Under the pieces are notes generated by a model, which was given only the letters and a program-made list of their open reading frames with translations, was not told the origin of the DNA and did not search any database. Made by a program: the position numbers and the translations under genes. Of a DNA stretch of 55,196 nucleotides, positions 29,140-41,148 are shown piece by piece (position 1 is the stretch's first letter; each line of letters opens with the position of its first letter). The DNA is from Calditrichia bacterium (GTDB taxonomy: Bacteria > Calditrichota > Calditrichia > RBG-13-44-9 > J075): positions 1-55,196 of the forward strand of contig JANQQU010000067.1 in NCBI GenBank assembly GCA_028284905.1. The letters are read 5' to 3'.

Positions 29140-32100
29140 TCAAAAATTAAACGAGTGTCTTAGCCGAATCCGGAAGTCGCTGGGAATATTCTCATAGTAG
29201 GGATCAAACTGAAAGCGGCTGTATTCCATTTCCAGCAACCAGTTATAGAGCAAGCGATACTCCAGACCCCAGGTATGATTCATTCCCAATTTAGTATTAT
29301 CCTCGATTTCCGTGACCAATTCACCTTTGTAAACCAACTGTCCGGTATAAGTCAAATAAACATCTTTCAATAAATACTTACCCAACGACAATTCCGAACT
29401 TTGTAATAATGCTAACGCCGGATCAATATTATTGTTCAATTTTGTGTTCAAAAAAGTAGTTGCGCTGTTTTGCCATTGAAAGTTAAGGTTAAACAAATTT
29501 GAGGTAAGGCTAGAACGAACACGGACATAGTCCAGTCTTAATCGCCGTTCCAATTGCCGCTCGATCGGGCGAAACAAGGGGCGCAGGAAGAAGTTTTCCG
29601 TCATTTTCAGACCAACTTCTCCCGCCTTGGTCTGGAGGTTTTTGAAGCTATAGCCGAGGTGCGCCAGCACGTCTTCCTGGGTTTCCCCGACCATATCATC
29701 GCGGGTTTCCAGTTTAAAACGGAAGTCTTCCCAGCGTCCTTTGGAGACTTCCTTACCGGTAATCGGATCGATAACATAGAGCTTCAGATAAACATCCAAT
29801 GGGAAGCCGGAATTCTCGTTATCACTGGCGGCGAGTGCTTCATTTGTCGCGCTGGTTTCGTTCACGATATCATAAGAAATGATATTACTAAAATCCGTTC
29901 GAACGGTGGTATAAGCAGTGCCATAAACTTCCGGATAGATCTCGTAGTTATTAAAAATCGCCCCAAAACGTTCTACCCGGAACTTCACGTCCAGGTATTC
30001 CACTCTTCCGCGGGATGAGAAAACTTCTCCCCCAACCCGGAAATAATCGCGATACAAGCTGGAGTCTGCGCGGGCAAAAGTCGTGCTGTCCGTTGAGGGA
30101 GGATCGACCAGAAAACGGCCAAAGAAATCCATACCCGGTGAGGAGTTATCGATGTTCAGATCCATAAACACCTCACCGACATACCCGGGAATATTGACAA
30201 AATAGCGATTGTTGTTACCGGGACGCACCGCGACATCCCAGAACATATTCATCAGGAATTCCAGTACCCTGTCCTCTTCATCGTAGGCGAATTCGCCGTC
30301 ATTATCATACATCCCGATAAAGGGAAAGGTCACCCGGCAATCGTACATCACCAGTTTTCCCCGGGCCACAGCAGAAGTTGGCGGTCCGGCAAAATAGAAT
30401 TTCTCATCGGGGGTTTTTCCGTAAGCCGCAAAAAAGCCGTATTCCCCTTCCTCCATCAGGCCGTAAAGGGAAAGTGGAATGCCCGAGGACAGCGTTTCCA
30501 GGGTTAGGACGCCAAAGTCGATCCCAAAGTCCTGTAGGCGCCAGGGTGTCAGCAAGGTATCTTCCACGGTCACTTGACGCTCGTTGGCGATTCGGGCCCA
30601 GTTGCCGTCTACCAGTCCTTCGATATAATTAATTTTGAAAAAGCCGGTGGAATCATCCAAAACGGCATCTGCGCGCAATCCGGTTACCCGGGGAATAGTA
30701 TTCTCGAAACCAATTGAACCATCGAGAATGTTCAGACGGGCCTGATCAAAATAGAAATTATTACGGGAGCCTTTCAGGCGCGCAAACAAACTGCCGGTAC
30801 ATTCCGGATCGATAAAAAATGGCTGAAAACGAGGAATTTCTGCCAGAATATTGCCGGTAACATTCAAGGAAAAGTCAATGGGGCCGGTTTCGTCGATACT
30901 CAGGAAGCCGTTGCCTTCGACCGTATAGTCTTCTTCGCTCATATAAACGAAGCGGCGTATCTTCGCGAGATGGTCTTTCAGCACCCAAAAGTCGCCATCT
31001 GCCGTCAGCGAGTCTTCGAAGGTCATATAAGCGGTATGAAAGGGGTTATCGCGGAAGCGCCCGTCGCGTATCTCCCCGGATCCGTACACCAATGGTTCAT
31101 CCATAGTTCCGCGGGCGATCAGGGTATAATCAAGGCGACCGTTGACAACGTCCGGGTCGCGAAAAATTGTTTCCGCCAGAAAATTACTTTCGATCTCACT
31201 GCCGGCCGCTTTAATATTGATGGAATCGGATTGCAGATTCCAGTTAAATGAAGCCGTCATGACGGAATCTCCATTGAGGCGTAACCAAAGATCTTCAAAT
31301 TCCAGGTATTGATCCTTCAGGCTGCCGGAAATATGAGCATCGTAATAGCCGACCTGGTTAACAATCAGATCCGCCCCCTGCAGGTCAAAATCGATATCCG
31401 GATTGCCGACCGTCCCATCAATCTTCATCGTACCGAGCAGTTTTCCCTCCTGAACAATATTTGAAAGTCCGGGACTATTCTCCAGATAATTCTCTAAAGC
31501 AAAATGCGCTATATTAATGTTGCCATGAAACGGATCATCAGCTTCAGCGCCGACAAACAGATCGCCGGAAAGCATATTGGGCACTTCAATCTGGGTGGAA
31601 AAACCGCCGGTGGAGAAGGCGACATCAAAGCGTCCTTCCGTTTGGCGGGGATAGGTATTCGCGGTAAAATTTCCCCGAAAGCGCTGGTCATCCAAAAAGA
31701 TATTGCGGATATGTGTAGACATTACCAGTTTGGTATCCTGAATATCGTCCTGGGAAACAATTTTCATTTTCGTAGAAAGATTGTCGTAAGGACCGGCAAA
31801 ATAAAAATTGGCAAATCGATCGTCCATTAGCTTTGAGAGTATTGGATTTCGGGTAAACTTCTTCACCGGAAAATCCTTTACATTCATATACTGAAAATCG
31901 GCGTCGCTGAAGACATTTTCGATGACGCCTTTAACAGAAAATGCATCGTCAATTTCTTCGGTGTACAATTCATAGCTGAAAAGCTGATCGTCCAGCGTAT
32001 AAGGCCCGATTGCGCGCACCAATACCGTATCTTCACTAATTGCCCGGCTTTCAAATTCCCCTCTAAAAAGCTTGGTAGTATAGTCGCCATTAAATGTGGT

Positions 32101-33474
32101 AGAAAGCTCGATGCGCCCTTCGTTTAAGCGATTAAGAAGGGAGAAATAACCTTTCGGCACATCGATATCAGATTCCATGTCCAAATCGATCTGATGGGTG
32201 ACAAAATCGATCGTTCCATTTCCGACGGTGCGAAAATCAAAGAAATAAGCGACATATTCGGGGAAAGTAAGCAGCTTGGAGGCGGTATTATAAACCAGCT
32301 CCACCCGGTTACGGTTAAACGGCACCACTGCATAAAGTAAATTCGGGCTGGTCATGGTAGCGACAATATCGAGATTTTTGAACGGCCCGCGAATCGTCGC
32401 GCTTCCCTTTAGCTTTCCTTCATAGAGATATTCAAAAATATCATGTGATTTATAAAGGTTCCGGGCGGTGTAGTTGCGAAAAGTGAACAGCCAATCCGCT
32501 TCCGGTTGAAAGATATTCGGTATTTGCCCTTCAAAATTTCCATCACCATCCTCCACGTTACATTCAAATGGCAGGATATTGATTGTATGCCGGTCGAACT
32601 CGAAGGTAAACTCCGGCGCGTGAACGGACTGATCATATATCGATGTCCGGAAATCATTGACAACGATACCGCCGCTAAACGACAGGCTATCTTCCCGGAA
32701 ACTGTTGCTGTTCAGAAAAACTTTCCCCTGCAGGCTGGCATTTTCGATTTGCCAGAAATCAAACGGCCAGAAAGGCCAGTTGGAGTTAATGATACATTCC
32801 TGCAAGTCCAATGTTGCCAGCCAGGATTTTTCGGCAAAATCTACCGCACCTTCCAGCTTAAGCGCAGAATTTTCTGTTCCGAGAAATTTTCCGGAAAGGT
32901 CCAGGTCTACAGAGTTGCTGTTTGCCCGGTAATTGACCCGGCCATCCAGGTTGCTGAGCAGCGGAAAGCGGCGGTTCTGCTGCATTTGCAAATCGATGCT
33001 GCCATCGACGATCATCACGTGATCAATTTGCGGTGCGCGCTGCAGATTGGTAATAATTTCTTCAAATACCTGCTCCAGGGAGATGCCGCGATCATCCTTA
33101 ATTTCTATCTGATCGGAATAGAACAAGGTTAAATTGGGAGAAACGATTTGAACGGATTCCACCAGTTTTATCGGCCGGGGACCATGAGTCAGTACTTTCA
33201 GGGGATAGAGCCCAAAGCGAATTTCTTCCAGCTCCAGGGAGAAGGTTTTTTTCGGATCGGTCGTGCGCACCCCATAAAAGGAGACAGAGTTTAGCCCAAT
33301 GGAAAAGTCGTTAATTAAAAACGAATCTCCAAGATAAGGCTGAAGCTCCTTTACGAGCACGCCATTCACTTCATCTTTCAGCGGTGTAAAATTCCAGAGC
33401 AAGTAGCCCAGAATAAACACAGAAAGTGAAATGAACGAGACATAAAAATGCCAACTTCTTCGTTTTTTAACCAT
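29140..33474 (-). CDS. tamB: TamB-like translocation and assembly module protein
   Basis: TamB-like (AsmA/DUF490 superfamily) proteins bridge the two membranes with a long hydrophobic beta groove. They take part in phospholipid transport and in outer-membrane protein assembly. The 1444-residue protein has one N-terminal membrane anchor (about 10-27, FYVSFISLSVFILGYLLW), then over 1000 residues of beta-rich repeats. The C-terminal TamB domain (about 1180-1444) has ETRDDMVGETQEDVLAHLGY and the terminal beta-signal ending in Phe. Its place 72 bases upstream of bamA is a known arrangement in Bacteroidetes and relatives. No strong ribosome site precedes the ATG at 33474. Confidence 0.88.
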   Translation of the reverse strand: MVKKRRSWHFYVSFISLSVFILGYLLWNFTPLKDEVNGVLVKELQPYLGDSFLINDFSIGLNSVSFYGVRTTDPKKTFSLELEEIRFGLYPLKVLTHGPRPIKLVESVQIVSPNLTLFYSDQIEIKDDRGISLEQVFEEIITNLQRAPQIDHVMIVDGSIDLQMQQNRRFPLLSNLDGRVNYRANSNSVDLDLSGKFLGTENSALKLEGAVDFAEKSWLATLDLQECIINSNWPFWPFDFWQIENASLQGKVFLNSNSFREDSLSFSGGIVVNDFRTSIYDQSVHAPEFTFEFDRHTINILPFECNVEDGDGNFEGQIPNIFQPEADWLFTFRNYTARNLYKSHDIFEYLYEGKLKGSATIRGPFKNLDIVATMTSPNLLYAVVPFNRNRVELVYNTASKLLTFPEYVAYFFDFRTVGNGTIDFVTHQIDLDMESDIDVPKGYFSLLNRLNEGRIELSTTFNGDYTTKLFRGEFESRAISEDTVLVRAIGPYTLDDQLFSYELYTEEIDDAFSVKGVIENVFSDADFQYMNVKDFPVKKFTRNPILSKLMDDRFANFYFAGPYDNLSTKMKIVSQDDIQDTKLVMSTHIRNIFLDDQRFRGNFTANTYPRQTEGRFDVAFSTGGFSTQIEVPNMLSGDLFVGAEADDPFHGNINIAHFALENYLENSPGLSNIVQEGKLLGTMKIDGTVGNPDIDFDLQGADLIVNQVGYYDAHISGSLKDQYLEFEDLWLRLNGDSVMTASFNWNLQSDSINIKAAGSEIESNFLAETIFRDPDVVNGRLDYTLIARGTMDEPLVYGSGEIRDGRFRDNPFHTAYMTFEDSLTADGDFWVLKDHLAKIRRFVYMSEEDYTVEGNGFLSIDETGPIDFSLNVTGNILAEIPRFQPFFIDPECTGSLFARLKGSRNNFYFDQARLNILDGSIGFENTIPRVTGLRADAVLDDSTGFFKINYIEGLVDGNWARIANERQVTVEDTLLTPWRLQDFGIDFGVLTLETLSSGIPLSLYGLMEEGEYGFFAAYGKTPDEKFYFAGPPTSAVARGKLVMYDCRVTFPFIGMYDNDGEFAYDEEDRVLEFLMNMFWDVAVRPGNNNRYFVNIPGYVGEVFMDLNIDNSSPGMDFFGRFLVDPPSTDSTTFARADSSLYRDYFRVGGEVFSSRGRVEYLDVKFRVERFGAIFNNYEIYPEVYGTAYTTVRTDFSNIISYDIVNETSATNEALAASDNENSGFPLDVYLKLYVIDPITGKEVSKGRWEDFRFKLETRDDMVGETQEDVLAHLGYSFKNLQTKAGEVGLKMTENFFLRPLFRPIERQLERRLRLDYVRVRSSLTSNLFNLNFQWQNSATTFLNTKLNNNIDPALALLQSSELSLGKYLLKDVYLTYTGQLVYKGELVTEIEDNTKLGMNHTWGLEYRLLYNWLLEMEYSRFQFDPYYENIPSDFRIRLRHSFNF

Positions 33475-35092: not shown

Positions 35093-35205
35093 TATCTTCA
35101 TTTTTTCATATAACTTTTTTGAAAAATATCTTTAACAGTCATTACACATTTAATAGGTTATCGGACGAAAAGTGTAAGACTGTAAGTTTTTTAGGAGTTT
35201 TTATT

Positions 35206-36003
35206 ATGGCTGTAAATATTGAAACAATGCCGGAAGCCCATTCGCCAACTGCCCCGGTTATGCCCGATGCTGGTCCGATCTTTATCGACCAGGGTGAAGT
35301 GGGCTTATTATTCCTGCATGGTTTTACCGGCACCGCCTTCGAAGGACGGGATTTTGCCAATTACTTTGCCGAGAAGGGATACGGCGTTTGGGTACCGCTT
35401 CTACCCGGACATGGTACCACTCCAGAGGATCTTAATGGCATCGATTACCAGATATGGATAAAAACAGCTGAACATTATTACCAGGAGATGTGCCGGAAAT
35501 ATGCTACAGTATATGTTTGCGGGCAATCGATGGGCGGCGCGCTCGCACTGCATCTTGCCGCAAATTACCCGGTAAAGGCTGTAGTAACAATGGCTTGTGC
35601 TATTATCATGAAAGATTGGCGACTATCATTATTGCCACTGGCGAAACGGTTTATTGAGTATCAGCATAAGTCCCGGGGACCTAATGTTAGCGAGAAATCC
35701 CGTAAAACAGAGATTCCCACATATCATAAATATTCAATTAGTAGTTTGCAGGAATTCCTGAAACTGATCGGGTTCGTTAAAACCGAATTACCGCGGGTAG
35801 AATGCCCGGCGTTGATCGTTCATTCCCGCAAAGATCACACAATTACATATGACAATCTTCCCTACATCATGGCACATATTTCTTCTCCCAGAAAAGAAAG
35901 TCTTACTCTGGAAAAATCGTATCACCTGATTAGCCTGGATCGGGAACGACTGTATATATTCGATACTGTTAACAAATTTCTGGAAAATATTCCCAGCCGG
36001 TAA
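35206..36003 (+). CDS. Alpha/beta hydrolase, Est30-like carboxylesterase
   Basis: I chose the ATG at 35206, with AGGAG eight bases upstream. An in-frame ATG 29 codons earlier has no ribosome site. The 265-residue soluble protein has the alpha/beta hydrolase order: oxyanion loop FLHGFTGTAFEG (about 37-47), PLLPGHGTTPEDL, nucleophile GQSMGG (Ser108), Asp210 (SRKDHTITYD) and His240 (KSYHLISLDRERLYIF). The order and the HLI-SLDRE ending match the thermostable carboxylesterase Est30 and monoacylglycerol lipase-like group. The substrate is probably a short- or medium-chain ester. It is monocistronic. Confidence 0.88.
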   Translation: MAVNIETMPEAHSPTAPVMPDAGPIFIDQGEVGLLFLHGFTGTAFEGRDFANYFAEKGYGVWVPLLPGHGTTPEDLNGIDYQIWIKTAEHYYQEMCRKYATVYVCGQSMGGALALHLAANYPVKAVVTMACAIIMKDWRLSLLPLAKRFIEYQHKSRGPNVSEKSRKTEIPTYHKYSISSLQEFLKLIGFVKTELPRVECPALIVHSRKDHTITYDNLPYIMAHISSPRKESLTLEKSYHLISLDRERLYIFDTVNKFLENIPSR

Positions 36004-36095: not shown

Positions 36096-36124
36096 TTGAC
36101 ATTTTCTTGAGTTTTTAGTAAACT
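36096..36124 (+). promoter_or_regulatory. Sigma-70-type promoter for the 36197-41107 operon
   Basis: TTGACA (36096-36101) and TAAACT (36119-36124) are separated by exactly 17 bases. The start of the first gene lies about 70 bases downstream. This is the best housekeeping promoter I see in the window. Confidence 0.65.
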
Positions 36125-36196: not shown

Positions 36197-37906
36197 ATGA
36201 CGCAAGGCTCTATAATTTTGAAACTACTTGTCGTTGTATTTGGTCTGGTGCTCTGGCAAGTCATTTCTATCCCCGGAAAGCTCTGGAAAGAAGAAGCGAG
36301 TATGGAAGAAACAAGTCGCCGCAACTTGAATACGCTTTATGAAGCCCAGAATTACCACTACAGCAAAAATAAATCGTATATTCCGTCTGATTCTCTGGAA
36401 AATCTGCTTAATTTCGTCCGCACTGACTCCAGTTTACAGGAAAAACAAAAAATTGGTGAATTAACGCACATCTTAGTTGGTAATATTGACCAAATTTTGA
36501 ATGTACCGGTAATCAGCGCAATTTCGCCTTTATCTAAGTCGATTGCAGAAATTAGCGAAGATCTCGATTTCAACGCTCGTTATTTCGTTAATTTTGACAA
36601 CCTGGTACAACAGCGGGAAGCATTAAAAGCGGGTGTTAACAAGTTCAACGGCACCATCGAGTTCCCGAATTTTTGCGAAGCAAGAACTTATGTGGACTCA
36701 CTGAACTACTTGAAAGAGTCAATCAGCGATCATACGTTGCAGAATGCGACATTAATGGCGCAGCGTTATATCGACTCTCTGAAAGTTTATATTCCACAAG
36801 TAGAAGTCTCGACTGTTGAGAAGTACTGGGGCGAGCAAGTAGCGGCAATGAACACCTTCATTAGAGATATTCGCCGCACGAATATTACCTCGATTACCAG
36901 TGTCGATGACCGCATTGAGACGTTTGCCAAAGTTGCCGACGAAGGAATGAAAGCGCTCACAGAAGTTGATCTTTCAAAAAGCAACTCAAATCTCGATAAT
37001 CAGAAAGCAGCGCTTGATAAAGTTCATAACAGTTTTATCACCGACAACTTTCTGTTAACCCAAAGACGCGGCATCCTTCAGCTTAGCGAAGCTGACTCCG
37101 TTTTGGTAAAATTCGATGAGAGTTATTTTGAGTGCCCGGACAGATTTGATGGCGACCAGCGTTACCTGGTTTTATACGAAGAAGGCAAGCCTTCGGTAAC
37201 TATTGAATCTCCGAATTTGCTGGATCAATTTAATAGCGAATTGCTGGAAGCTACCGGCCCTATTTCAGATATTTCGATTTATCCTTACGTCGATCAAGTC
37301 CGTGCATCTTTGGACAGCACCGCAAAATTAATGGATGAAGTTAAAACAAGGCATCGCCTGAGCCGCTACAGCACGGAATTACTGTTGAACCTGAAAGAGG
37401 TAACCGCGGAAATGCAGGATTTATCCAATGTTCGCTTTTTCCGTTATGTTTCCAGTGTGAAAGATTTTGTTGATACCGTAAAAACTGAGAAAGCTTTCTC
37501 ACGCTTAAAGCCAATGATCGAAAATGTCTCTAACCAATTTGATACACTGGCAACACGAGTCGAAACCGGTAATATTCGCGACCTGGAAGAACGACTAAAT
37601 TACTTTGGTACTAAAATACAGAATTTGGACTCACTTATTGCAAACAACTCAAGGATTCCGGCACGGAGCCGAAATCAAATCCAGCCATTCTATGACACAT
37701 ATCAATCTGTTTTTGGCGTAGTTCAGGAAATGAAAGGCGCTTTCAACAGTAGCGATGGTGACAAATTCCGTCAGGCACGGGAAATGATTGACGAGAAAAC
37801 AGCTGTCATGTTGAATGGATATGAAGAACCCGTATATGGCGTTTTCTACAAGAAACATAAAAACCATGGATTTGTTCAGAATGGAATGAAGAGTTGGGAG
37901 CAGTAA
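36197..37906 (+). CDS. Membrane-anchored coiled-coil protein of unknown function
   Basis: I chose the ATG at 36197, with GGAGGAG directly upstream. The 569-residue protein has one N-terminal membrane helix (about 7-25, ILKLLVVVFGLVLWQVI). A segment follows (RRNLNTLYEAQNYHYSKNKS) that resembles the region after the helix in prepilin-like and FCB membrane proteins. The rest is a long, mostly helical periplasmic domain with many Asp, Lys and Leu residues and predicted coiled coils (about 190-280 and 370-500). No FTLIE prepilin cleavage site is present. It is first in an operon with a PilM-like and a PilN-like gene, rsmD and coaD. The function is unknown. I infer a role in a pilus- or secretion-platform-like complex. 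Confidence 0.8.
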   Translation: MTQGSIILKLLVVVFGLVLWQVISIPGKLWKEEASMEETSRRNLNTLYEAQNYHYSKNKSYIPSDSLENLLNFVRTDSSLQEKQKIGELTHILVGNIDQILNVPVISAISPLSKSIAEISEDLDFNARYFVNFDNLVQQREALKAGVNKFNGTIEFPNFCEARTYVDSLNYLKESISDHTLQNATLMAQRYIDSLKVYIPQVEVSTVEKYWGEQVAAMNTFIRDIRRTNITSITSVDDRIETFAKVADEGMKALTEVDLSKSNSNLDNQKAALDKVHNSFITDNFLLTQRRGILQLSEADSVLVKFDESYFECPDRFDGDQRYLVLYEEGKPSVTIESPNLLDQFNSELLEATGPISDISIYPYVDQVRASLDSTAKLMDEVKTRHRLSRYSTELLLNLKEVTAEMQDLSNVRFFRYVSSVKDFVDTVKTEKAFSRLKPMIENVSNQFDTLATRVETGNIRDLEERLNYFGTKIQNLDSLIANNSRIPARSRNQIQPFYDTYQSVFGVVQEMKGAFNSSDGDKFRQAREMIDEKTAVMLNGYEEPVYGVFYKKHKNHGFVQNGMKSWEQ

Positions 37907-37926
37907 ATCAATATCAGGAATGATTC

Positions 37927-38868
37927 ATGGGAGAAATAATCAGTAGTATCAGCTTTCAGGACAACCACGTAACCTGGGTCCAGGCAGAAGTTGAGAAATC
38001 TCAGATTATCCAAATACAAAGGGCAGTTGAAAGTCCACTGCCCTTTGTTATTAATTACGATAACATTTCAAAACCTACCACCGTTATCCGAATTGCAAAT
38101 CATCTAAGCGCACTCGCGCTGAAAAACCACCTTAATACGCAAAACGTACGTTTTCTATTATCAGCACGCTTTGGTCTGGTGAAAAAGATCAATGTGGATA
38201 GCTATATACCGGAAAATATGTACGAGACAGTTGTTTCGGCAGAACTTTCCCATGAGCTAACCTCTGATCTGGATGACTATATTATCTACCGGCCGGAATA
38301 CGTTCGGGAATACAATGCCCTGAAAGAACTGCTGGTTTTTAGCGTTCGTAAGGACATTTTCGGTTTTTTCAACAAGATCGCCCGCGAAGCAGGCATGTCC
38401 CTGACGCATATTAATCTGAACTGTTTTTCGGTCGATGAATTATTCCGGCGCTTCTACCCCAATCAAATCGGCCAGAGTCTGTTGGTAAACTTTACCGAAA
38501 CCGGCTTTGAAACGGTGGTTTCCGATGAAACCAGTTTTCTGAGTTTTAACTTTAAGCCCTATACGAAGAATCTCAACAATATCAATCAACTCGACAGCGG
38601 AGAAATATTCTCTGCGTTTAGCGCCATGATCGACGACATCCAACGTCCCGGACCGGTGGACAGCCCGCTTTACTCTATTTCGCAGGTCATTTTATTCGGA
38701 AATAGTTTTAAAGCTTTATGGCTGGACGATTTACAGAATATTTGCAGCCTGCCGCTACGAATACTCAATCCGGCGGATAATTCCGAATGGCAGATCAACT
38801 CCGAGGATCCGGAATTTGGCGCTATGGGCGCGCATCGCTTTGTTGAACCCTTGTCAAACATTTTCTAG
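37927..38868 (+). CDS. DUF3822/PilM-like actin-fold protein
   Basis: The gene encodes 313 residues with no membrane segment. AGGAATG precedes the ATG. The layout, two strand-rich halves linked by VFSVRKDIFGFFNKIAREAG and LLVNFTETGFETVVSDETSF, matches the degenerate actin-like fold of PilM/GspL cytoplasmic domains and of DUF3822. DUF3822 proteins are often encoded next to rsmD in Bacteroidetes, and rsmD lies two genes on here. The late motif ISQVILFGNSFKALWL fits the nucleotide-domain end. No clear ATP-binding phosphate loop is visible. In pilus systems PilM recruits PilN at the inner membrane, and here the next gene is PilN-like. Family placement is moderate. Confidence 0.65.
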   Translation: MGEIISSISFQDNHVTWVQAEVEKSQIIQIQRAVESPLPFVINYDNISKPTTVIRIANHLSALALKNHLNTQNVRFLLSARFGLVKKINVDSYIPENMYETVVSAELSHELTSDLDDYIIYRPEYVREYNALKELLVFSVRKDIFGFFNKIAREAGMSLTHINLNCFSVDELFRRFYPNQIGQSLLVNFTETGFETVVSDETSFLSFNFKPYTKNLNNINQLDSGEIFSAFSAMIDDIQRPGPVDSPLYSISQVILFGNSFKALWLDDLQNICSLPLRILNPADNSEWQINSEDPEFGAMGAHRFVEPLSNIF

Positions 38869-38895
38869 TTCTATATAAAGCACTGAAGGCATAAC

Positions 38896-40050
38896 ATGGT
38901 CAAAATCAATCTTTTAGATGTTCCGCAAGAGCAAGACCCGCAAAAAAACAAGGATCTTCCTGCAGAACAAGAGTCGCCGACCCCGGCAAACAAAATGGAC
39001 TTTGAATTTTTTACTGACGAAGCCGAACAGTCCAGTAATATGCAAATGGAACCGGCAGAATCGGTGTACCAGCCTCAGCAGCAATATCAGGACCCACAGC
39101 AGTACCAGGACCCGCAACAATATCAACAGCAACAGTATCAGCCCTATCAGGAACACGTCTCCAGCGAAGATCCGAAAACCGGAAATCCCTTCGAGAATCA
39201 GGAAAATTTCACTGACGAATATGACGCGCCACCGAGCATCGAAGACCTCTCCCCGAAGAGCAATATTTTTAAGTACGGTTTAATTGCCCTGGCGGTCATT
39301 TTAGCAATCGTGGCAATCTTCTACTTCTGGGACATCACCGGTAGTGACGATCCCAATAACAATAATACCGTTACCAACAATACGGTTACTCAACCGGAAA
39401 ATACCCCGCCACCGCCAGCAATTCCGGAACAATTCCAGCGTTTATACAGCCAGAATCGTCAGGATAATGCCTTTCGGGTCGACCAGCTGGGGCAATTGCT
39501 GGATGCACAGGCAGCCGGTGTCAATAAATCGATGGTCGTTGTTACGCCCGGCCATGCTTATTTTAGCATTATTGGCGACAGCAGAGATGCAATTGCCAAA
39601 TATCGCATCAACTTGCAAAATGCAGCACCGGCTTTTAGCAAGATTAAGATCGAGTCGATTCAGGAATTATTTCTGGATGGCCAGCAAAAGATGCAGGCGG
39701 ATTTTTCCATCCCCTTGCCTACCACAAGCAGTAGCCGTGCAGCGAATCGCTATACCAGTATTCAGTCTGCATCCAACGCAAAATCTGCATTGAGATCGAC
39801 TGCACAGAAGTATAACCTGCAATACTCGGTAACCGACGGCGAAAAAGAAACCCAGCGCGGTATTAAGAAAAATTATTATTATCTGCGCCTGGTGGGCAAA
39901 AACGGGGCGATAGTGGATTATCTTTCAGAAGTATCCAATACGCTGCCCTCGACCAATATTGCAAAAATTTCGATTCATCCAACGAATGGCCAAATGTTTT
40001 CAGGGAATGTGAAAGCCCAGGTAGAACTTGTTATTTCCGACCGAAATTAG
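38896..40050 (+). CDS. PilN-like bitopic protein with Gln/Tyr-rich repeat
   Basis: The 384-residue protein begins MVKINLLDVPQEQ, close to the MIKINLL start by which PilN binds PilM. A low-complexity cytoplasmic stretch follows (about 56-84) with PQQYQDP repeats. One membrane helix lies at about 131-149 (FKYGLIALAVILAIVAIFYF), preceded by an acidic linker. The periplasmic part (about 180-384) has two alpha/beta ferredoxin-like halves (VNKSMVVVTPGHAYFSIIGD and VDYLSEVSNTLPSTNIAKIS), as in PilN/PilO/GspM. The linker between the PilN-like peptide and the helix is much longer than usual. It ends 11 bases before rsmD. The homology claim rests on motif and layout. Confidence 0.7.
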   Translation: MVKINLLDVPQEQDPQKNKDLPAEQESPTPANKMDFEFFTDEAEQSSNMQMEPAESVYQPQQQYQDPQQYQDPQQYQQQQYQPYQEHVSSEDPKTGNPFENQENFTDEYDAPPSIEDLSPKSNIFKYGLIALAVILAIVAIFYFWDITGSDDPNNNNTVTNNTVTQPENTPPPPAIPEQFQRLYSQNRQDNAFRVDQLGQLLDAQAAGVNKSMVVVTPGHAYFSIIGDSRDAIAKYRINLQNAAPAFSKIKIESIQELFLDGQQKMQADFSIPLPTTSSSRAANRYTSIQSASNAKSALRSTAQKYNLQYSVTDGEKETQRGIKKNYYYLRLVGKNGAIVDYLSEVSNTLPSTNIAKISIHPTNGQMFSGNVKAQVELVISDRN

Positions 40051-40061
40051 CAAGGAGCTGA

Positions 40062-40613
40062 ATGCGAATCATATCCGGGAAGTATAAGGGCCGGCAGCTG
40101 AATGCTTCCAAAGATCGTTCGATAAGACCTACAACGAACAAAATCAAAGAATACATATTTAACCTGCTGGATGATGCAGTGCTTGATGCAAACGTGCTGG
40201 ATCTATTCAGCGGGTCAGGTGGGTTGGGCATCGAGGCACTTAGCCGCGGTGCCGCCAAAGCAACCTTCGTCGACGTTGCCCAAAGCTCGATCAAGGTGCT
40301 TCGGCGTAACCTTGAACAGATTAAGGTGGCAGAGCAATGCCGGGTGGTCCGCAGAGACGCAGTCGATTTTCTCCGGGTGAATAAGGCTCCCTTCGATCTG
40401 ATTTTTGTCGACCCGCCATTTCCCTGGGGCGCGTTTGAGAAGCTTTTACCCCGGGCATTTACCGCAAAGAATTTAGCTGAAGACGGCATTCTGGTCATGG
40501 AAAATGAACGCTCGCATGACATCGACTGGGAGAGCGAAAATTTTCATATTCTTCGCCAGAAGCAATTCGACCGCAGTATCATCAGCTTTCTCACCCACAA
40601 AGGAGACCTATGA
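40062..40613 (+). CDS. rsmD: 16S rRNA (guanine966-N2)-methyltransferase
   Basis: RsmD methylates G966 of 16S rRNA in assembled small subunits. The 183-residue length is normal. The start reads MRIISGKYKGRQLNASKDRS IRPTTNKIKE (the first part is diagnostic), the AdoMet-binding motif is DLFSGSGGLGIEALSRGA and the catalytic motif is FVDPPF. AAGGAG precedes the ATG at 40062. The stop overlaps the coaD start by ATGA. Confidence 0.95.
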   Translation: MRIISGKYKGRQLNASKDRSIRPTTNKIKEYIFNLLDDAVLDANVLDLFSGSGGLGIEALSRGAAKATFVDVAQSSIKVLRRNLEQIKVAEQCRVVRRDAVDFLRVNKAPFDLIFVDPPFPWGAFEKLLPRAFTAKNLAEDGILVMENERSHDIDWESENFHILRQKQFDRSIISFLTHKGDL

Positions 40614-41107
40614 AACTAGCGATCTATCCCGGCACTTTCGATCCGATTACGAATGGCCATCTGGATGTTCTTGAGCGCGCTTCCCGCCTCTTCGATCATA
40701 TCATTGTTACTGTTGCCCGTAATACCAGCAAATCGCCGCTGCTGACCCCAACAGAACGGGTCGACCTGATTCAACGAACGGTTAAAGCCTGTATCAAAAC
40801 TTCCGATAAAATTTCCGTGGAATTATTTCAAGGTTTGATCGTTGATTTTGCCGAAGCGAAAAAAGCCAGTGCGATCATTCGCGGTTTACGGGCGATTTCG
40901 GATTTCGAATATGAATTCCAGATGGCGCTGGTAAATCGCCGCCTGAACTCCGAAGTGACCACGGTTTTTCTCATGCCCAATGAAAAATATACTTATCTGA
41001 ATTCAACAATCGTTAAGGAAGTGGCCTCTTTCGGGGGAGATATTTCCAATTTCGTGCCGCCGCTGGTAGAGGAAACCATTAAAGAAAAGCTGCTGAAAAG
41101 GAAATAA
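40610..41107 (+). CDS. coaD: Phosphopantetheine adenylyltransferase
   Basis: CoaD makes dephospho-CoA from phosphopantetheine and ATP, the fourth step of coenzyme A synthesis. The 165-residue protein has the nucleotidyl-transferase motif YPGTFDPITNGHLDV (TxGH at 16-19), the phosphopantetheine region RGLRAISDFEYEFQMALVNR and the C-terminal LNSTIVKEVASFGGDISNFV. GGAGACCT precedes the ATG. It overlaps the rsmD stop by four bases, the common rsmD-coaD pairing. Confidence 0.97.
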   Translation: MKLAIYPGTFDPITNGHLDVLERASRLFDHIIVTVARNTSKSPLLTPTERVDLIQRTVKACIKTSDKISVELFQGLIVDFAEAKKASAIIRGLRAISDFEYEFQMALVNRRLNSEVTTVFLMPNEKYTYLNSTIVKEVASFGGDISNFVPPLVEETIKEKLLKRK

Positions 41108-41111
41108 AAAA

Positions 41112-41148
41112 GCCCGGCTCATCATGCAAAGTGAATGATCAACCGGGC
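41112..41148 (-). terminator. Terminator between coaD and pepD
   Basis: GCCCGG (41112-41117) pairs with CCGGGC (41143-41148), and inner ATCAT pairs with ATGAT. On the minus strand T6ATTTCC follows, so it ends pepD. On the plus strand the tail is A-rich, so it is probably one-sided. Confidence 0.75.

Follow-up and report, generated by a model that had tools for sequence, protein, structure and literature searches.

A gene cassette beside rsmD and coaD in Calditrichia encodes pilin-, PilM- and PilN/PilO-like proteins and may form a pilus-derived envelope complex

The three genes preceding rsmD and coaD in a Calditrichia genome encode relatives of a type IV pilin (A), of PilM (B) and of PilN/PilO (C), and in our estimation these probably form a small, static inner-membrane complex, descended from the assembly core of type IV pili or type II secretion systems and no longer part of a pilus. 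Our confidence is moderate in the architecture of this complex, and low in its role as an envelope scaffold. Relatives of pilin, PilM and PilN are familiar from filament and secretion machines that are driven by a motor. If our reading is true, a set retained this widely with no motor, secretin or detectable pilin processing would show that such a core is able to exist in the envelope as a complex in its own right.

The window, by which we mean the whole stretch of DNA analysed (55,196 nucleotides), makes up a single contig in a genome of 8.55 Mb. Its forward strand carries A (36197..37906; 569 aa), B (37927..38868; 313 aa) and C (38896..40050; 384 aa), three open reading frames located where the original prediction had placed them. 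The conserved next genes, identified by Pfam as well as by synteny, are rsmD, for a 16S rRNA methyltransferase (40062..40613, forward strand; Cons_hypoth95, E 1.5e-49), and coaD, for phosphopantetheine adenylyltransferase (40610..41107, forward strand; CTP_transf_like). Short gaps (20 bp between A and B, 27 bp between B and C) and the conservation of the order suggest that the five genes are co-transcribed, and a hairpin 3' of coaD (about 41112..41148, forward strand; fold -19 kcal/mol, z -3.6) is the probable end of the transcript. What had been called a good promoter, TTGACA-17-TAAACT (36096..36124, forward strand), does agree with 10/12 consensus positions, but the scan returned 11 promoter-like sites in the region against 9.1 expected, a count not above chance, so that the site is not significant by itself. 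Since A-B-C would be transcribed with rsmD and coaD, their expression is probably constitutive. Upstream of the cassette are an alpha/beta hydrolase (S33-like) gene (35119-36003), kept there in two Calditrichota families, and a 1444-aa open reading frame (29140-33474) which, by eye, looks like a TamB-type envelope protein.

The kinship of B to PilM emerged from both sequence profiles and fold. Profiles of two B clades, which align with each other end to end (E 1e-22), each found Myxococcus xanthus PilM as their sole significant PDB match (E 6.9e-7 for A2 and 6.7e-10 for A1); with the single B sequence, PilM was again the top match, weakly and under the Pfam cut-off. An AlphaFold2 model of B has the actin/FtsA-like fold: Foldseek ranked PilM first (E 5e-15), followed by FtsA, the DUF3822 structure 3HRG and the cytoplasmic part of GspL/EpsL, and superposition on the PilM-PilN complex structures 5EOU and 2YCH gave TM scores of 0.67 and 0.66, normalised by target. 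The nucleotide motifs of PilM, DIGS and GG, were present in two true PilM controls and missing from all B sequences compared, and B is therefore probably not an ATPase. Nor does B stand in a pilMNOPQ operon, its neighbours being rsmD and coaD.

Protein C was expected to be a bitopic protein with an MVKINLL start and ferredoxin-like periplasmic halves, and sequence and model agree with this description. An NLL-type motif occupies residues 5-7; a long, acidic and Gln-rich cytoplasmic linker then leads to the single membrane helix predicted for C, and on the periplasmic side the model shows two alpha-beta-beta-alpha-beta-beta domains in tandem. This domain fold is the one stated for PilN and PilO (PMC5805733). 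Asn5 is invariant in the order-level alignment, starts resemble M-x-K-Y-N-L-L at class level, and INLL or NLL starts recur in other families; in one such start, MIKINLLGTEE, the first seven residues are identical to those of a true PilN from another genome (G053; MIKINLLPVRE). The N-terminal motif, the topology and the paired domains support a kinship to PilN/PilO, as do the top PDB profile matches, PilO (E 0.005) and PilN (E 0.004), each of them weak; the Pfam PilN model (PF05137) did not match C. A weak NCBIfam match to GltJ (E 5e-5) lies mostly on the Gln/Pro-rich linker and was set aside. A lack of any fold resemblance to PilM or PilN, which would have spoken against a PilM-PilN platform, was thus not what the analysis found.

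B and C share a reading frame, which allowed them to be modelled together as one read-through chain, an artificial fusion, with aligned relatives. The MVKINLL stretch rose to a pLDDT of about 72 between flanking stretches below 50, and this one rise suggests that the peptide may dock onto B. Independent support for the pairing comes from a natural B-C fusion in another genome (G333; B part, E 7e-5). A second fusion, in G236, is probable from its position and membrane helix, with a B score that is not significant.

The original prediction presented A as a new coiled-coil partner and saw no prepilin nearby. The first description has to be replaced and the second is wrong, since A is itself a pilin-like protein within the cassette. 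It starts with a short leader (MTQG|S) and a single N-terminal membrane helix and ends in a conserved KSWE; its model, almost entirely helical, comprises a first helix of 53 residues (6-58), the length of a pilin alpha1; a long helical insertion comes next, and after it two short strands precede further helices. Across 22 aligned A proteins the Gly and Ser before the membrane helix and a Pro 21 residues after the Ser (Pro22) are invariant. At position +5 Lys and Glu predominate, with other residues too; Glu is thus not invariant, and the window has Lys. The sole significant PDB match of the A profile was the type IV pilin PilA (E 2.2e-7), with profile positions 11-70 on residues 3-62 of the mature chain, so that the G|S junction falls exactly on the prepilin cleavage site.

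That this likeness merely reflects convergence of membrane helices, A being an unrelated coiled-coil protein, seems to us very improbable. Pfam N_methyl was not reported for A, nor was it among the 25 families listed for A6 members, and a Foldseek search with the A model returned no match, as convergence would have it. Against this, the PilA match is in register and continues well beyond the membrane helix along the periplasmic stretch of alpha1, and in a control of 240 open reading frames with N-terminal membrane helices pilins ranked directly behind the cassette A proteins. Short forms of A, of 167-230 aa, moreover match PilA, GspG and geopilin and keep a CP..Y...CP pattern. The short-A profile acts as a general pilin detector, with matches in 246/385 genomes.

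Conservation of the cassette is such that selection on it is clear. A profile search located gene A in 38/40 Calditrichia genomes, and in nearly all of the 26 Calditrichia loci read, contig ends aside, the order A-B-C-rsmD-coaD was kept; the exceptions were L032, where coaD is not adjacent, and L050, in which the frame of A is disrupted. The same five-gene order recurred in eight genomes of eight GTDB families outside the class (L165, L166, L167, L169, L170, L171, L172 and L174), other families having reduced or fused forms, and the proposed tie to rsmD-coaD therefore holds in Calditrichia and in many families outside the phylum. C was absent from the loci of one family (f12). The named relatives of the window genome are mostly Calditrichota MAGs; searching genome contigs with a single protein returned no match, and our literature search found no paper on an A-B-C module beside rsmD/coaD.

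Outside Calditrichia, genes of hrcA-grpE-dnaJ type lie upstream and pta downstream, often with a ComEA-like HHH gene upstream as well; grpE, dnaJ, HHH and pta were identified by Pfam in one locus (L169), and hrcA was read from its size and place. The HHH gene raises the alternative of an accessory to DNA uptake, in which A would be a DNA-handling pseudopilin on a PilM/PilN-like base, fed by a ComEA-type receptor. About a dozen loci of these other families indeed have a membrane-anchored HHH gene directly upstream of A (of B in two of them), and ComEC was present in 44/48 genomes searched. ComEC is common anyway (10/14 control genomes), however, and went undetected in three genomes that keep A, namely G236 (98% complete, 0.9 Mb), G229 and G029. 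In Calditrichota, moreover, the HHH gene is not beside A, and in the part of a Riemerella transposon screen for transformation genes available to us an HHH protein is named and nothing is identified as DUF3822 (PMC8459023). We consider this alternative unlikely.

A further alternative would have the cassette function within a conventional type IV pilus or type II secretion system whose other genes lie elsewhere; A, lacking Glu5 and bearing a large helical insertion, would then be a tip subunit resembling GspK. Most cassette genomes do encode a prepilin peptidase and motor and platform proteins of PilB/GspE and PilC/GspF types, so that A could serve pilus machines there, and most copies of this pilin homologue retain the G|S junction, as would be expected if cleavage were important, a feature that also speaks against a static complex. 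A search for other type IV pilus genes, suggested with the original prediction, was successful in the window's own genome: a separate T2SS/T4P-like locus (L103; G000:C37:150500-170400) encodes a GspL-like fusion of PilM-PilN type, T2SSM_b, a secretin, T2SSF, a prepilin peptidase and an N_methyl pilin. Since this locus has a GspL-like protein, T2SSM, a secretin and a pilin of its own, it counts against the conventional assignment, and the idea that B-C supplies the missing platform of that genome's pilus was dropped on the same ground. Pilus genes were not seen beside the cassette in any cassette locus read.

Certain genomes, in addition, keep the cassette where processing or motor genes were undetected. 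A prepilin peptidase was not detected in seven near-complete genomes that all keep A (G004, G005, G008, G016, G028, G094 and G236), no PilB-type match exceeded the family cut-off in G028 and G236, and T2SSF was unmatched in G028, these absences being called from draft genomes 90-98% complete, which may miss genes, apart from G008, which is one contig. Conversely, G093 and G367 have a prepilin peptidase and an A without the Gly of the cleavage site. Attachment of A-B-C to a conventional system is, on balance, decidedly doubtful. Retention of the cassette where peptidase or motor is undetected, the Gly-less A proteins and the separate pilus locus together point to a static, pilin-derived complex, and its persistence in some genomes without a detected motor or pilin-processing enzyme makes a previously undescribed job in the cell envelope probable. 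That several cassette genomes have no detected peptidase also argues against the cleavage of A and its assembly into a filament.

Other pilus-like loci were encountered. The pilus cluster of Caldithrix abyssi is presumably our locus L106. Such a cluster has been reported for that organism (PMC5317091). L104 (G008:C1:2281500-2300500) and L105 (G005:C161:53500-72500) combine T2SSE and T2SSF, L105 with a PilN-domain protein as well; each also encodes a small protein that begins MGQQQLLLIVL, where MG alone would form the leader, in genomes without a detected prepilin peptidase.

The static complex may have a counterpart in Bacteroidota, where the DUF3822 family (PF12864) is represented by the structure 3HRG (BT_3980 of Bacteroides thetaiotaomicron). 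To our knowledge no function has been assigned to 3HRG, and our literature search found no paper on DUF3822. The suggested likeness of B to this family stands by fold (Foldseek E 5.5e-9 for the B model against 3HRG) and by gene position, rsmD or coaD being the next gene downstream of DUF3822 in 12/16 DUF3822 loci; by sequence it is weak, hhalign giving a probability of 51% and the PF12864 model not matching B in Calditrichota. As the alignment is weak, the claim is carried by synteny, fold and an A-like neighbour. Five DUF3822 loci have, just before DUF3822, a gene for a bitopic A-like protein that ends in a Trp motif and aligned with A at an hhalign probability of 84-88% (E 4e-6 to 8e-6; controls at most 6%). 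The label Bacteroidota is given to these loci since, among control genomes, the DUF3822 family matches only Bacteroides. No C gene was found in the Bacteroidota loci read; the A-like protein and DUF3822 are thus probably a Bacteroidota version without C, and C, missing here and in f12, is not obligatory. In one family of the Bacteroidota sample, two loci (L160:604-1152 and L161:2143-2697) have a ComEA-like HHH gene immediately before a gene that weakly resembles DUF3822/B, with no A between. For DUF3822, the cassette provides a context and a partner, and it supplies genes which may be deleted in tractable Bacteroidota.

In the static complex as we picture it, cytoplasmic B would clasp the N-terminal NLL peptide of C much as PilM clasps that of PilN; C, spanning the membrane, would use its two PilN/PilO-like domains to hold the pilin-like helix and the helical periplasmic body of A; and A, presumably uncleaved, membrane-anchored and not polymerised, would act as the periplasmic reach of what may be an envelope scaffold. 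More broadly, and at somewhat short of an even chance, we suggest that an ancient pilus core was domesticated: an uncleaved relative of pilins, anchored in the membrane, and a relative of PilM that lacks the nucleotide motifs, in most cases connected by a PilN/PilO-like protein, would form an envelope complex, be transcribed with rsmD-coaD across several phyla, have a function of their own and account for DUF3822 in Bacteroidota.

Comparison with known systems places the cassette near several of them. With type IV pilins and GspK-type pseudopilins, A shares the short leader, the G|S junction, the 53-residue alpha1, Pro22 and a two-stranded CP...ECP region; it differs in its variable position +5 (Lys, Glu or other), its huge helical insertion in Calditrichota, a C-terminal NHG..KSWEE motif and its retention without a detected prepilin peptidase. 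The PilM/PilN/PilO subcomplex (2YCH, 5EOU, 3JC8) has the same actin-fold cytoplasmic protein, the same NLL-peptide partner with one membrane helix and the same periplasmic alpha-beta-beta-alpha-beta-beta domains, whereas in the cassette B lacks the PilM nucleotide motifs, C unites PilN- and PilO-like domains in a single polypeptide whose cytoplasmic linker measures about 120 aa, and PilP, PilQ, PilB and PilC are not nearby. The Pfam DUF3822 model misses B of Calditrichota and the Bacteroidota loci read yielded no C, yet DUF3822 (3HRG) and B have in common the actin-like fold, the place upstream of rsmD/coaD and, in five loci, the A-like bitopic protein before it. Unlike GspL/GspM, finally, the cassette has no GspE or secretin context and exists beside the genome's T2SS-like locus rather than replacing it, but its natural B-C fusions resemble GspL in uniting a PilM-like domain, a membrane helix and a periplasmic domain.
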